Shown piece by piece: positions 35,231-40,170 of a stretch of DNA of 64,000 bases. The notes beneath the pieces are model-generated. The model was not told where the DNA came from. It searched no databases and saw only the letters and a list, made by a program, of their open reading frames with translations. This DNA comes from Leptospiraceae bacterium (GTDB taxonomy: Bacteria > Spirochaetota > Leptospiria > Turneriellales > Turneriellaceae): positions 124,001-188,000 of the forward strand of contig JANWWS010000014.1 in assembly GCA_025055765.1 (NCBI GenBank), given 5' to 3'. Numbering within the stretch: the first letter of the stretch is position 1; every line of letters starts with the position of its first letter. The position numbers were made by a program, and so were the translations under genes.

Positions 35231-35611
35231 TCATTGCGAGGGCTTATTTAGCTGCCAGTGATGGGGATTTACACATTGCTTGTTGCCACAGAGATTTACG
35301 AGCCTGCTTTTTTCCGCTAAGTCTTCGCAAAATAGCTCGTATGCAAAACGATGACTTTTTACTACTTTGTTCTGCCTTAACCAAAACTGGGGATAGCCAT
35401 CGCGAGTAAAGCTTCCCTCCCATTGCCAGCAGGATGGGGTTTTCTTTACATAAGACAGAAAGCGAAGAACGGTTTTCTCATCATAGGGGCTCGGGTTGCG
35501 TAAACCTTCAAGCCTCGGTAACTCTGCCTTAAGTTCTAGCGATCTTGTGGATTTTCGCGATTCCCCCTCTCTCTTTTTTTTGTTTCTTTTGTTTTTCTTC
35601 GCCACTCCCAC
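35231..35611 (-). CDS. Small HNH-fold protein with an altered active site
   Basis: 126 aa from GTG 35611 (a second GTG at 35605; the frame also opens at TTG 35650, which is not favoured). A Lys/Arg-rich tail (KKNKRNKKKR) precedes an HNH-fold: CWQWEG...DGYPQFW, SHRFAYELF and VNLCGNKQCVNPHHW. In related HNH proteins the motif is L-H-x-C-D-N-P-x-C-V-N-P-x-H; here the general-base His is Asn and Asp is Gly, while Cys/Cys/His metal ligands remain. So it is likely catalytically dead or altered and may bind nucleic acid. It is first in the mla operon. Confidence 0.6.
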   Translation of the reverse strand: MGVAKKNKRNKKKREGESRKSTRSLELKAELPRLEGLRNPSPYDEKTVLRFLSYVKKTPSCWQWEGSFTRDGYPQFWLRQNKVVKSHRFAYELFCEDLAEKSRLVNLCGNKQCVNPHHWQLNKPSQ

Positions 35612-35615
35612 TCTA

Positions 35616-35644
35616 ATCGTAAGGGATGGAAAGCATATTTTCAA
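35616..35644 (-). promoter_or_regulatory. Candidate promoter of the HNH-mla operon
   Basis: TTGAAA (35644-35639), 17-nt spacer, TACGAT (35621-35616) on the minus strand, four or five matches per box. The -10 ends four bases before the GTG at 35611, so the message would begin at the start codon. Confidence 0.4.
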
Positions 35645-35816
35645 GGTCAAGCTTAATTTTTTTTACGTTGCGGCTTTGTAGTAAAATAATTCAACCTTTG
35701 CCTTCAAGACGAAAGCTATTCGAAAAGCTAAAAGAGGCAGCACCTGAGCTTTGTGTTTGGGGATTTTGTTGGGTTTTTATAGAAGTTGTCGATTTTGATA
35801 CATATAAAAAAAAGAG

Positions 35817-35845
35817 TAGACTTGATAGGGGTATCTTCGTATACT
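35817..35845 (+). promoter_or_regulatory. Candidate promoter of the cytochrome-lipoprotein/DUF1501 operon
   Basis: TAGACT (35817-35822), exactly 17 nt, TATACT (35840-35845). The predicted transcription start falls at or next to the GTG at 35852, matching the leaderless spacing seen elsewhere. Confidence 0.4.
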
Positions 35846-35851
35846 AATTTA

Positions 35852-38344
35852 GTGCTGCTCATTTGGCTTTTTCTAATACTCGTGTTATATGGGTGTAGCG
35901 AGCACCGTCCGGTAAAGCCGGTTTCAGAAGAAGTATGTCCTGAAGCCGATATTGATTTCTTTAAAAGGCGGGTTTGGGGGCCCATCCTTCAGTATAAGGG
36001 CTGCCACGGCTGTCATAACGAAACGGGTGTGGCTAAGTCTTTTGGGGTGCGTTGGCATCTAACGCAAAACAATGCCGATGCAGACTTCGAAACAATGAAG
36101 GCTGTGGCTGTGCGCAAAGCGGGTGAGATTTCTCTTTTGCGGCGAAAGGTCATTAATGACCCGGCCACCCCTCATAAGGGGGGAAATCTCTTTCCTGATA
36201 TAGGACCCTATGGAAAGGATGTAGCGCTTCTTGAAATCTTAGATGAATTTATCGCTCGCTCTGAGAATCCCACGCCTGCCTGCAACAAGGCGGGGATAAA
36301 CTATGACATTCTTTATGGCGTACAAGAATATGACTATGCCCAAACTTTGCGCAAGGCCCGTATTGCACTTACAGGGAAAATCCCCACGCCCTTTGAAGAA
36401 ACCCTCGTCATGGAAAAGGGAAGCCAGGGTCTTGACGAGGCTTTAGACCATATCATGCGAGATGATGATTTTTATGAGAGGCTGCGAGAAATCTGGAATG
36501 ACATCCTCCATACAGATATGTATTATATGGACCCTCTCATTGGAAATTACATGCAGGCATACAGAGTCTTAGACGAGCGGCTTTATCCTGACCGGGATTG
36601 GTTTGAGACGTTTCCTGCTCACGGCTATCCTGTTTCCGTTACCAGTGACCCAGCTAAAATGGCAGCACTGCGGCAAGAGCTTCGCCAGCTCACCAATAAA
36701 GCCATTGCGCGTGAGCCAATAGAACTCATTGTCTATGTTGTACGAAACAATCGCCCGTTTACCGAAATTGTCACCGCAAACTATTTCATGGTGAATGCTT
36801 ATTCGGCCCGAGCTTATGGAATAAACCAGCCTGGTGTACCTATCTTCACCGACAGCAGTTTTATTGCAGACCACCCCTATGACAGGTTTGTTCCAGCTAA
36901 GCTCTATCAGCGTGAGGTTAGCTTAAGTGGATGGATGCTCAACACAGAAACCGTAGATCCGACAAGGGTGGTGGAGGTGCCCTTGGCGGGGATCCTCACT
37001 TCTCCCCTATGGCTTGCACGATATCCCACGGCCGAGGGTAACGCAAATCGCCATCGCTCAAGGATGGTTTTTGAGTTTTTTCTAGACCTCAACTTATTGA
37101 CTCTCGCTCAGCAGTTAGAGGCTTTTGGTGATGCCGATCCAAACCCCACGCTTAATGATCCCAATTGCGCTGTCTGCCATACCATTATGGATCCTGTAGC
37201 AGGTCTTTTTAAAAACTATAGGCGTGGCAATTACTACATCAAGGACAGCTGGTACCACGATCCAGCTTGGCTAAGGTTTAGCCCCAATACAAGAATGCGC
37301 CCACCCGGTTATTCCGTAGAGGAGCCCTTGCCCGCCGCGTATGATCAAAAACCCCTCGTTTGGTTGGGGAATCGCATAGCAAAAGACTCACGCTTTGCCC
37401 TTTCTGTAACGAAGCATATGTTTAAAGCCCTCACGGGTCGCAGTGTACTTAAAAGACCTTCCGAAAATGACAGACCTCCTGGCAAAACCGACAGTGAGTG
37501 GCAGCAAATTTACCGTGAGCTAGAGCAGGCCTATCTTCTCCAAGAAAAGGACATCCGGCGTTTTCAAGAAGCCTTTGAGCGTAGTAATTTTAACTTGAAG
37601 ACTCTCATCAAAGAAATCATTAAATCGCCTTATTTTAGAGCACGCAACGCCAAGCAAGTTGAAGAATACCGCCTACGCCATGTGGGGGTAGCACGACTTT
37701 TAACCCCCGAGCAACTCAATAGCAAAATCGAATCTGTCACAGGAATTCGCTGGGCTAATCCCTGGTCAAACATACCTTATCTTTTGAGAGATTATTACTT
37801 TCTCTACGGGGGCATTGACTCGATTAACACGACAGTGCGTACCCAAATCCCCAATGGGCTCATGAGCAATATACAGCTGCGTATGGCCTTCGAAATAGCC
37901 TGCCAGGCGGTAGTAAGGGATTTTTCCCACATCAACCATAGTGACCGGAAGCTCTTACCCCTTGTGGAGCCAACCTATGCACCAGAGGTCAATGGCATAA
38001 GCTCGCCGACAGCGATTGAGAAAATAAAACAAAATATTCGCTATTTACATCGACAAATTTTGGGGGAATATTTGTCGCAACAGGATCCCGAAATCGAGCG
38101 TACCTACCAACTTTTTTATCTGACCTTTAAGGAAGGTCAAAATAAGAAGGGTACTCCTCAAGATTGGGATACGGGTAACCCCGCCACAAGAGCACCGCTG
38201 CGCTGTACTTTTAGCGGAACAGATGCTCAGGGAAACCCCATACCTGGTCGTCGGCCTGTTACGAGCGATCCCAATTATGTCATACGCGCATGGCAGGCAA
38301 CGGTGGCCTATCTTCTCACGGATGCGAGGTTTGTCTATGAATAG
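35852..38344 (+). CDS. Exported lipoprotein with two CXXCH haem motifs (DUF1592/DUF1588-like)
   Basis: 830 aa from GTG 35852 (a TTG at 35786 would add 22 residues). A hydrophobic stretch ends in LYGC, a plausible lipobox. Two haem-c motifs: CHGCH (about 55) and CAVCH within NCAVCHTIMDP (about 445), the latter matching DUF1588. RPFTEIVTANYFMVN and ILTSPLWLARYPTAEGN match the DUF1592/1588 style seen in Planctomycetes and myxobacterial-type proteins. Partner DUF1501 protein follows with overlap. Function unsettled: haem-linked extracellular or periplasmic redox/polymer metabolism is often guessed. The promoter, not a ribosome site, decides the start. Confidence 0.7.
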   Translation: MLLIWLFLILVLYGCSEHRPVKPVSEEVCPEADIDFFKRRVWGPILQYKGCHGCHNETGVAKSFGVRWHLTQNNADADFETMKAVAVRKAGEISLLRRKVINDPATPHKGGNLFPDIGPYGKDVALLEILDEFIARSENPTPACNKAGINYDILYGVQEYDYAQTLRKARIALTGKIPTPFEETLVMEKGSQGLDEALDHIMRDDDFYERLREIWNDILHTDMYYMDPLIGNYMQAYRVLDERLYPDRDWFETFPAHGYPVSVTSDPAKMAALRQELRQLTNKAIAREPIELIVYVVRNNRPFTEIVTANYFMVNAYSARAYGINQPGVPIFTDSSFIADHPYDRFVPAKLYQREVSLSGWMLNTETVDPTRVVEVPLAGILTSPLWLARYPTAEGNANRHRSRMVFEFFLDLNLLTLAQQLEAFGDADPNPTLNDPNCAVCHTIMDPVAGLFKNYRRGNYYIKDSWYHDPAWLRFSPNTRMRPPGYSVEEPLPAAYDQKPLVWLGNRIAKDSRFALSVTKHMFKALTGRSVLKRPSENDRPPGKTDSEWQQIYRELEQAYLLQEKDIRRFQEAFERSNFNLKTLIKEIIKSPYFRARNAKQVEEYRLRHVGVARLLTPEQLNSKIESVTGIRWANPWSNIPYLLRDYYFLYGGIDSINTTVRTQIPNGLMSNIQLRMAFEIACQAVVRDFSHINHSDRKLLPLVEPTYAPEVNGISSPTAIEKIKQNIRYLHRQILGEYLSQQDPEIERTYQLFYLTFKEGQNKKGTPQDWDTGNPATRAPLRCTFSGTDAQGNPIPGRRPVTSDPNYVIRAWQATVAYLLTDARFVYE

Positions 38345-39722
38345 TTTGCATATCTGGGTAAAAGACAAGGAAATCTCGCGCAAAGAATTTCTTAAAATCT
38401 TGACTCTCGCGGGTCTGGGCATTTCTCTGCCTTTCCCTTTAGCCAAAAGGGCACATGCAAGTCCTCCCCCCAATGCATCCAATCCTCAGCCTTTTTGGGT
38501 AATCATTCATGCAGGAGGGGGATGGGACCCCACAAGCATCTGTGATCCTAAAGGGGGACTTGTGAACCACTTTCCGGGTGGGGTAAATGTAAATGGCTTT
38601 TCGTTAGCTCCCCCCCCAGGTGGTTGGATCGGTACGAATGTGGGATTGGACCATATCTTGTTTCAGTCTTATCCCAATTATATCAGGGTTATCAATGGCA
38701 TAGATACCACAACAAACAACCACGACACAGGTCCAATTTACGTGTGGAGCGGCAAAATATCGCAAGGACATCCTACCTTTGGGGCTCTTATCGCAGCGAT
38801 ATATGGCGCAAGCCGCCCACTTGCCTTTATTAACTATGGGGGTTATTCCTATACAGCGGGTGTCATGGGTACCACCCAAATCAATAGCTTAGCTCAAATT
38901 AGAGCCTTGGCTGAGCCCAATGTTATATCCGGCAATGACCGCTATTTTACACCAGAAACTCTAAACCGTATTAATCAATTTCGTGCGCAAAGAGTGGCGC
39001 GCCTTATTAATGAACAAAAGCTGCCCAGCATAAAGGAGGCCTTAACTGCTCTGCAACAAGCCCAAATCAATGCCAGCCAGCTTGATCAATTCATAGCTCA
39101 TGCCGATTATCTAACGAGCCGAGTAACGGTGGGTAATCCCAATTATAATGCGGCTTTTGCCCAAGCCTATAATAATACGGGTAACCTCTATGGTCCCCTG
39201 CCTCGTCAATTTGCCATAGCTTTTGCCGCATATAATGCCGGACTTTGTGCCAGTGCCAATTTGTCCATAGGGGGTTTTGATACTCACGACAACCATGACA
39301 ACACGCAGATGCCGGCAGTAAACCGAATTATGCGCTCTGTCAAATTTATGCTGGATGAGGCCATGGCTGCCTATGGTAACCTTAACAAGATCATGATTGC
39401 CGTGGGGTCGGATTTTGGCCGAACGAACCGCTACAATGGTGCCAATGGGAAAGACCACTGGCCGATCACGAGTATGATTTTTGCGGGAGGTCTTTTATCC
39501 ACACGCAGTGGTGTAACCGGGGGCACAGACAGCGATCATAAGCCAAACCCGGCGATGTCCCCTGTGCCAGGTCGCATTATTAAACCCTCTCATGTGCACT
39601 GGTCCCTAAGGCGTCTTGCAGGCATAGAAAATGCGGTGATTCCGGCACTTGGTCTTACGGTAAAGCAGGCTTTCCCTACCGTGAGTGACAGTGAGGGTAT
39701 GCCTATGTTTGGTGACGTTTAA
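38337..39722 (+). CDS. DUF1501-family exported protein (alkaline-phosphatase-superfamily-like)
   Basis: 461 aa from ATG 38337 (GAGG ribosome site eight bases upstream), overlapping the cytochrome gene by eight bases. Tat-like leader with an RK pair (SRKEFLKILTLAGLG) and hydrophobic helix, cleavage near RAHASP. DUF1501 signatures: GGWDPTSI near the start, GGFDTHDNHD and VGSDFGRT...GKDHWP metal-site-like motifs. DUF1501 proteins pair with DUF1549/1553- or DUF1592/1588-type cytochrome proteins; together they form a frequent but biochemically uncharacterised exported module. Confidence 0.82.
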   Translation: MNSLHIWVKDKEISRKEFLKILTLAGLGISLPFPLAKRAHASPPPNASNPQPFWVIIHAGGGWDPTSICDPKGGLVNHFPGGVNVNGFSLAPPPGGWIGTNVGLDHILFQSYPNYIRVINGIDTTTNNHDTGPIYVWSGKISQGHPTFGALIAAIYGASRPLAFINYGGYSYTAGVMGTTQINSLAQIRALAEPNVISGNDRYFTPETLNRINQFRAQRVARLINEQKLPSIKEALTALQQAQINASQLDQFIAHADYLTSRVTVGNPNYNAAFAQAYNNTGNLYGPLPRQFAIAFAAYNAGLCASANLSIGGFDTHDNHDNTQMPAVNRIMRSVKFMLDEAMAAYGNLNKIMIAVGSDFGRTNRYNGANGKDHWPITSMIFAGGLLSTRSGVTGGTDSDHKPNPAMSPVPGRIIKPSHVHWSLRRLAGIENAVIPALGLTVKQAFPTVSDSEGMPMFGDV

Positions 39723-39880: not shown

Positions 39881-40170
39881 GTGCTGCCTGAGATGGACAA
39901 GCGCTTTGAGCTTGTGGAAAAGCGCTTTGAACAAATTGACAGGCGTTTTGAAGAAATCGATAAGCGCTTTGAATTTATTCAGGCTATTTTAGTGGCGTAC
40001 TTTTGGCCGTTCTAGGCTCTCCCTTTTTGGTGGAGTATATGGCGTGTCGTCGGGAAACGAAGGCACTTGAGGCTTATGATTTAAGCCAGCGCATACTAAT
40101 GGCACTTCGCGAGGCTAAAGAGAAAAACCCTGTTCTTGAGAAAGCCCTAAAGCATGTGGGATTATTGTAG
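39881..40170 (+). pseudogene. Frameshifted gene for a KRFE-heptad coiled-coil membrane protein
   Basis: Two frames together give one plausible protein. Frame 1 (ATG 39893 to TAG 40013) encodes MDKRFELVEKRFEQIDRRFE, continuing as heptads of KRFExxx, then IQAILVAYFWPF and stop. Frame 2 (from 39994 to TAG 40168) continues GVLLAVLGSPFLVEYMACRR and a charged helix ending HVGLL. Restoring one G at 39992-39996 (GTGGGCGTA) joins them through a membrane helix. A second single-base shift near 39846-39848 (ATGG-GCA) would connect an upstream ATG and ARPATDADIAHVLPE. Either a decayed gene or sequencing errors. KRFE-repeat proteins are otherwise of unknown function. Confidence 0.6.

Follow-up and report, generated by a model that had tools for sequence, protein, structure and literature searches.

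What might a spirochaete do with a candidate haem lipoprotein whose gene overlaps that of a DUF1501 protein, and how did it come by the two? The question arises from a stretch of 64,000 nucleotides (nt) of a Leptospiraceae bacterium (hereafter the window; contig JANWWS010000014.1, positions 124,001 to 188,000, assembly GCA_025055765.1), whose genome measures 2.5 Mb and is 99.4% complete. Here, a two-gene unit consists of a lipoprotein gene (35852-38344) and a DUF1501 gene (38337-39722), both on the forward strand and overlapping by 8 nt. An earlier note, made from the sequence alone, had read the two as a haem-type lipoprotein and a DUF1501 protein of a probable spirochaete; both open reading frames (ORFs) and the motifs quoted there are present, two CXXCH motifs and a Pfam match to DUF1501 bear out the combination, and comparison within the phylum upholds the spirochaete host. 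The pair is real, intact and rare, and was probably acquired laterally. As to its role, we tentatively favour, with confidence somewhat short of even, an envelope haem lipoprotein and a DUF1501 metalloenzyme that would couple electron transfer to carbohydrate processing, substrate and chemistry both being predicted.

Two haem motifs and a candidate metalloenzyme

The lipoprotein (830 amino acids (aa)) begins with GTG at 35852 and ends with TAG at 38342-38344; TTG codons at 35822 and 35786 are possible earlier starts. Its L-Y-G-C lipobox (35885-35896; all features of the two genes are on the forward strand) places a putative lipid anchor at Cys15, which is invariant in the three spirochaete copies, namely that of the window and those of two further genomes, G125 and G156. 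The first c-type haem motif, CHGCH (residues 51-55; 36002-36016), lies in a small N-terminal part that is weakly cytochrome c553-like. The second, CAVCH (residues 439-443; 37166-37180), falls within a PSCyt3/DUF1588-like stretch of the core (residues 380-456; 36989-37219; PF07627, E = 4e-4, 21.1 bits vs a cut-off of 27), and its two Cys and its His are invariant in all five aligned copies (three from spirochaetes, two from Vibrionaceae). Around it lie PSCyt2/DUF1549-like (residues 158-221; 36323-36514; PF07583, E = 8.9e-5, 23.0 bits vs 29.8), PSD4/DUF1592-like (residues 265-324; 36644-36823; PF07631, E = 1.1e-4, 23.1 bits vs 23.3) and PSD2/DUF1585-like (residues 566-595; 37547-37636; PF07624, E = 0.006, 16.7 bits vs 25.8) matches, so that the order of these sub-threshold matches is PSCyt2-PSD4-PSCyt3-PSD2. 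Two CXXCH motifs appeared in none of 20,000 protein shuffles and a single motif in 27, and the lipoprotein is the only one among the 49 chosen gene models in the window with any CXXCH. By sequence it carries the marks of a c-type cytochrome (two CXXCH motifs, a lipobox and a host with CcmE, CcmF and CcmC-like genes), and we predict a lipid-anchored protein with two covalent c-type haems, one in the cytochrome-like N-terminal part and one in a helical core. Residues 551-618 (37502-37705) show a sub-threshold likeness to phycobilisome linkers (Pfam E = 0.012; Protein Data Bank (PDB) profile E = 0.0045); such linkers were the best PDB matches of the lipoprotein profile, and we take them as chance or a shared helical motif. 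PDB sequence searches with each single protein yielded nothing useful.

The DUF1501 protein (461 aa, ATG start) matches PF07394 well above its cut-off (E = 9.1e-18, 65 bits vs 27) and carries two Asp/His motifs that are probable metal sites. GGFDTHDNHD (39270-39299), the GGxDxH motif of the family, is invariant in 12 rows unselected for the motif; it is invariant too in a 20-row alignment, 11 rows of which were picked by a script requiring GG[WF]D[TSA]H. In GKDHWP (39447-39464), the GxDH motif, Asp and His are invariant in both alignments, and the Gly is invariant in the 20 rows and nearly so in the 12. A further motif, GGGWDPTSICDPKG (38514-38555), represents a subfamily signature, GGWDxTSxCDPKG, common to five members, whereas 14 ordinary DUF1501 rows from spirochaetes have the consensus GGMSHVDTLDPK at the same position. 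The N-terminal SRKEFLK...AHA resembles a twin-arginine (Tat) signal with RK replacing RR; this position is RK in the three spirochaete copies and RR in the two from Vibrionaceae, and the protein is probably Tat-exported. The two genes would thus encode an exported pair, probably from one operon.

Among the checks proposed in the earlier note was a search for c-type cytochrome maturation genes. Pfam identified CcmE and CcmF, and a CcmC-like protein was recognised by Pfam Cytochrom_C_asm and length alone, so that the lack of any Ccm or Ccs system, which the earlier note had named as refuting its reading, does not apply; ResB was not found in the host genome. The genome further encodes TatC and a haem-copper oxidase (COX1), and Cytochrom_C matches it above cut-off six times, with two of these matches apparently sharing a frame. 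Because Ccm genes, an oxidase and cytochromes c are present, the host can probably attach haem and pass electrons on; export and electron transfer, both anticipated in the earlier note, are probable. By way of the haems, electrons would reach the cytochrome c pool and the terminal oxidase, or pass from that pool to the substrate. The C-terminal motif of CcmE (L005:833-1240) is CASKY, apparently the CxxxY haem-ligand variant of some Desulfovibrio-type maturation systems.

The oxidase and the several cytochromes c could also make use of a general periplasmic electron carrier or a stress-linked redox protein, to which DUF1501 would be an assembly or maturation partner and which would have no carbohydrate role in the host. 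This explanation is a serious one, if doubtful. A Rhodopirellula PSD1/PSC2 gene has been tied to a stress-induced sigma factor (PMC2754498; here and below, citations refer to passages of the papers named), and inspection by eye recognised no carbohydrate gene beside the pair of the window or that of G156, the divergent neighbour in G125 being glgC-like. A plain carrier leaves unexplained, however, the DUF1501 neighbour of all five copies found, and the domains to which the core is fused outside the spirochaetes speak against it as well.

The core is fused to carbohydrate-related and cytochrome domains in Vibrionaceae

Relatives outside the phylum were sought in 72,556 plasmid records, planctomycete, myxobacterial and Cellvibrio chromosomes being covered by one pattern-based scan of genome contigs only. 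The lipoprotein matched two records, from Photobacterium sp. DA100 (E = 3e-53, with 31% identity over query residues 168-711) and Vibrio maritimus (BH16; E = 3e-45); in the alignment, core identity to the Vibrionaceae copies is ~32-34%. For the DUF1501 protein there were 19 matches, and coverage of at least 80% was reached only in the same two organisms (E = 8e-35 and 6e-32). Both Vibrionaceae pairs consist of adjacent genes in the spirochaete order and reside on large replicons, and the pairing of core and DUF1501 holds in 5 of the 5 copies found (window, G125, G156 and the two Vibrionaceae). In V. maritimus, tatABC is annotated ~2.7 kb upstream of the pair (L040:2901-4391); near the Photobacterium pair none was recognised by eye among the listed ORFs of more than 130 aa.

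The core-bearing Vibrionaceae proteins are 2,288 and 2,327 aa long, with the core at the C-terminal end. Above cut-off, both contain Laminin_G_3 and Cytochrome_CBB3, and the Vibrio protein alone CBM96 and GbpA_2; below cut-off, GSDH and CBM35-like matches occur in both and PA14 in Photobacterium. The cytochrome directly before the core matches PDB entries 8q1v (E = 1.2e-6 and 1.1e-7) and 7b21 (E = 2.4e-5 and 4.8e-4), the latter being CjX183 of the protein Cbp2D (PMC8981238). When searched against the plasmids, the Photobacterium core found 11 records. Besides itself and V. maritimus, these are nine whose match is confined to residues 405-655; in five of the nine, the gene at the match is named carbohydrate-binding, CBM35 or glycoside hydrolase.

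Cbp2D is composed of CBM2, X158 (YceI-like), FN3, X183, DUF1587 and X132 domains, and X132 is described as having no characterised homologue (PMC8981238, PMC10916295, PMC12542752); X183 and X132 each carry one CXXCH (PMC8981238). Deletion of cbp2D or cbp2E leads to poor growth on insoluble cellulose (PMC12542752), and a direct cutting activity, beyond the supply of electrons to lytic polysaccharide monooxygenase (LPMO), has been proposed for Cbp2D (PMC8981238, PMC10916295, PMC12542752). CjX183 is reported to have donated electrons to LPMO. A secreted Cellvibrio CBM2 protein is annotated as DUF1592 (PMC6004670, Table 1). In the Vibrionaceae homologues the core is placed after X183 and has its own CXXCH, as X132 does, a likeness of layout and not of alignment. 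Because of this fusion to an X183 cytochrome and the literature on Cbp2D-type proteins, the core probably corresponds, by analogy, to the X132/DUF1592 domain, and the helical core of the spirochaete lipoprotein would be of the X132/DUF1592-DUF1588 type. The lectin-like Laminin_G_3 of both Vibrionaceae proteins, CBM96 and GbpA_2 in Vibrio, and the impaired growth on cellulose upon Cbp2D loss argue against a mere carrier and for the coupling of electron transfer to carbohydrate processing, which the pair would carry out at the cell envelope. A bolder form of this reading, in which an X132/DUF1592-type haem core and DUF1501 make up a two-part oxidative carbohydrate-processing enzyme that works without LPMO, with the spirochaete pair as its minimal form and a DUF1501-like partner as the missing half of the proposed Cbp2D-type cellulose-cutting activity, is a long shot.

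A number of results weigh against carbohydrate processing by the pair. Its neighbours in the window are Mla-type transporter genes (by eye), a SpoIIE phosphatase and a chemotaxis receptor, with no carbohydrate genes among them; Pfam recognises no carbohydrate-binding domain in the lipoprotein, and neither protein has an NCBIfam match. All planctomycete-domain matches of the lipoprotein fall short of the curated Pfam cut-offs; the sole relevant match of its N-terminal part is cytochrome c553 (E = 0.03-0.06; 0.061 for that part searched by itself), and no X183 domain was detected there. We infer the identity of the core with X132 and do not read it from an alignment with Cbp2D or its Teredinibacter counterparts (TERTU proteins), and isolated Teredinibacter X183 domains are reported to have given no electrons to LPMO (PMC10916295). 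The AlphaFold2 models, each built from a three-row alignment, are poor (pLDDT 41.0 for the lipoprotein and 36.7 for DUF1501), and fold searches with them returned no match with E < 1 for either protein, the DUF1501 search serving as a faint hint only and that with the lipoprotein being set aside; the likeness of DUF1501 to sulfatases, described below, is insignificant match by match. No AA10 LPMO was found in the host genome by a search whose control was positive in only 1 of 14 genomes; the role of LPMO electron donor was rejected on this result, and an AA10-linked role is unlikely here.

What the DUF1501 protein might contribute

Titles and abstract openings retrieved in a literature search give no function for DUF1501. 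When its profile was compared with the PDB, sulfatases made up 2 of 4 and 6 of 10 matches (best E = 0.027). Among the best 50 of 118 matches of the fold search, YejM periplasmic domains took ranks 1, 2 and 4, and entry 5i5d, presumably YejM too, ranks 3 and 5 (E = 1.1-1.6). These weak signals hint, from sequence and model comparison, that DUF1501 may be a distant relative of sulfatases and alkaline phosphatases. The pair could accordingly be chiefly hydrolytic, with a glycan or lipid as the substrate from which DUF1501 removes sulfate or phosphate esters, and with the lipoprotein as a scaffold whose CXXCH motifs are structural or metal-binding. Besides the repeated, if weak, matches to sulfatases and the alkaline-phosphatase superfamily, the conserved Asp/His motifs of DUF1501 would suit such an activity, and in some Verrucomicrobia genomes sulfatase genes are frequent neighbours of PSCyt genes; carbohydrate-binding modules are also described for some PSCyt genes (PMC5615132). 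We nevertheless consider it unlikely: the second CXXCH is invariant in 5 of 5 copies despite divergence of the core to ~32-34% identity, the host keeps Ccm genes, and the Vibrionaceae copies contain further cytochrome c domains above cut-off. In the preferred reading, too, DUF1501 would be a metalloenzyme with these Asp/His motifs.

A rare unit, probably of lateral origin

Relatives of the lipoprotein were found, by sequence search and a five-row profile, in 3 of the 392 genomes of the phylum including its own, and DUF1501 lies directly downstream in all three. The carriers of the pair are thus 3 of the 13 genomes of the host family, each of a different genus, and none of the 379 other spirochaetes searched; two of the three carrier genomes are <90% complete, and absence from incomplete genomes is weak evidence. 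This is not the distribution of a vertically inherited housekeeping gene shared by all related genomes, which the earlier note had named as the contrary case. The DUF1501 family in general is more widespread, occurring in 35 of the 392 genomes at E = 1e-3 (30 above cut-off). Maximum-likelihood analysis of 19 DUF1501 sequences joins the copies of this unit, three from spirochaetes and two from Vibrionaceae, in one group (support 100/99), apart from the 14 other spirochaete proteins; the tree is midpoint-rooted, has long branches (tool warning on L030 and its neighbours) and draws its extra-phylum sample from two plasmid records. The patchy distribution and the separate DUF1501 set fit lateral transfer, a possibility raised in the earlier note, and the unit in the host family was probably acquired in this way, with no donor shown. 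The GC content of the two genes (48.1 and 48.3%, vs a gene mean of 44.4 +/- 2.3%) is a weak sign of transfer at most, and codon usage is no outlier. The pattern-based scan of genome contigs confirmed 2 of 85 candidate stretches, both of them family members already known; two scans of viral contigs confirmed none (0 of 218 and 0 of 44), and phage records, searched with DUF1501 only, contained no match. A defence or phage module was rejected as a candidate, neither protein matching PADLOC or PHROG.

The patchy occurrence of the pair (3 of 13 family members) would also suit a passenger that was acquired recently or is decaying and has no present function, as would its surroundings. Gene neighbourhoods differ among the window, G125 and G156, the last having acyl-CoA dehydrogenase-like and lumazine-synthase-like genes beside the pair (by eye, as for the neighbour in G125), and in the window the pair is flanked by a gene for an HNH endonuclease and by a small, broken one. 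Both frames are nevertheless intact and their motifs kept, protein identity to G125 is 77-80%, and purifying selection is apparent on both genes in comparison with the nearest relative (dN 0.20 and 0.17; dS not computable and taken as saturated). Because of this selection, the passenger reading is largely refuted, and we regard it as very improbable. The HNH endonuclease is of phage type (139 aa; 35231-35650, reverse strand; PHROG 3593, E = 2e-19; no Pfam match) and lies directly upstream of the pair; the broken gene (~39890-40170, forward strand), directly downstream of DUF1501, has KRFExIDxRFE-like coiled-coil repeats split between frames.

Partners of DUF1501 differ among spirochaetes

The partner survey covered ten DUF1501 genes, namely that of the window and those of nine of ten loci, the tenth (L036) being without an intact DUF1501. 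The partner is the core described here in three, DUF1549 plus DUF1553 in three, a DUF1800-like lipoprotein in three (one above the Pfam cut-off, one just below it and one assigned by its 61% identity to the first), and one (L030) has no relevant match. The C-terminal part of the core shows a relation to the DUF1553 (PSD1) partner by hhalign (E = 4.3e-5, probability 69%; 17% with a three-row profile), and no profile relation to the DUF1800-like partner was detected. A common origin of all DUF1501 partners, with support for the DUF1549/DUF1553 partner only and none for the DUF1800-like one, was therefore rejected. Such pairs had been called typical of Planctomycetes and myxobacteria, which proves too loose: ten spirochaete DUF1501 genes have three kinds of partner and one unknown, the planctomycete domains are sub-threshold here, and the nearest relatives found outside the phylum, among plasmid records and in one pattern-based scan of genome contigs, are Vibrionaceae. 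At L027, L028 and L029, in three other genomes of the same class, divergent DUF1501 proteins accompany DUF1800-like lipoproteins; these systems are of the same kind and fall in a clade of their own.

Expression signals

Ahead of the lipoprotein gene, a consensus scan finds TAGACT-17-TATACT (35817-35845, forward strand; 9/12 match), which ends 6 nt before GTG 35852 and, if used, would yield a nearly leaderless transcript. The promoter-like boxes that the earlier note described are therefore present, and they carry little weight: the 5.2-kb region holds 17 such sites on both strands, vs 7.4 +/- 2.8 in shuffles, and because of this excess a single site is weak evidence. The accompanying statement that the operon lacks a ribosome site is right for the lipoprotein gene, whose nearest relative has GAGGGGG ahead of ATG, and wrong for DUF1501, which has GAGG upstream. 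Such absence is in any case ordinary, a Shine-Dalgarno (SD)-like match being found in only 10 of the 49 gene models of the window, DUF1501 among them. Starts that are SD-independent or leaderless may be common in this genome, and some start codons are uncertain.

Comparison with known systems

The spirochaete unit represents a rare form within a bacterial family that is poorly understood; DUF1501 and planctomycete-type cytochrome proteins are described in the passages cited as being without known function (PMC4452313; PMC5615132). The likeness to the planctomycete and Verrucomicrobia PSCyt2-PSD1 or PSCyt3-PSD4 proteins consists of the sub-threshold PSCyt2, PSD4, PSCyt3 and PSD2 matches, with a haem motif in the PSCyt3-like part; the window lipoprotein differs in that all its matches remain below threshold and in an extra N-terminal haem motif outside them. 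DUF1800-DUF1501 and DUF1549/DUF1553-DUF1501 pairs are likewise adjacent genes whose DUF1501 has a signal-like N-terminus, but the partner belongs to another family and the DUF1501 to a separate clade. DUF1800-DUF1501 pairs are reported to have been transferred along with chitin synthase genes of bacteria (PMC5122149).

Cbp2D of Cellvibrio japonicus and TERTU_2913 and TERTU_3803 of Teredinibacter turnerae likewise combine a cytochrome with a C-terminal domain that has its own CXXCH. These X183-X132 proteins differ in having DUF1587 and, in Cbp2D and TERTU_3803, carbohydrate-binding domains, none of which is recognised in the window lipoprotein; a DUF1501 neighbour goes unmentioned in the literature passages on them.

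The closest counterparts found are the pairs of V. maritimus BH16 and Photobacterium sp. DA100, which share the core with the second haem motif, the adjacent GGWDxTSxCDPKG-type DUF1501 and the gene order. In those pairs, the core makes up the C-terminal third of a giant protein with lectin-like, carbohydrate-binding (in Vibrio), sub-threshold sugar-dehydrogenase-like and X183 parts and a CBM35-like insert, whereas the spirochaete core belongs to a lipoprotein that adds only a short, cytochrome-like N-terminal part to it. We know of no function for the Vibrionaceae pair of giant cytochrome and DUF1501. The spirochaete locus is of moderate interest as a compact, testable form that may link two groups of haem proteins so far studied apart: it is a small two-gene form of a core that Vibrionaceae fuse to lectin-like, carbohydrate-binding and Cbp2D-type cytochrome parts, and if the link holds, the planctomycete-type PSCyt/PSD proteins with DUF1501 and the X132 redox proteins of cellulose degraders would be one testable system.

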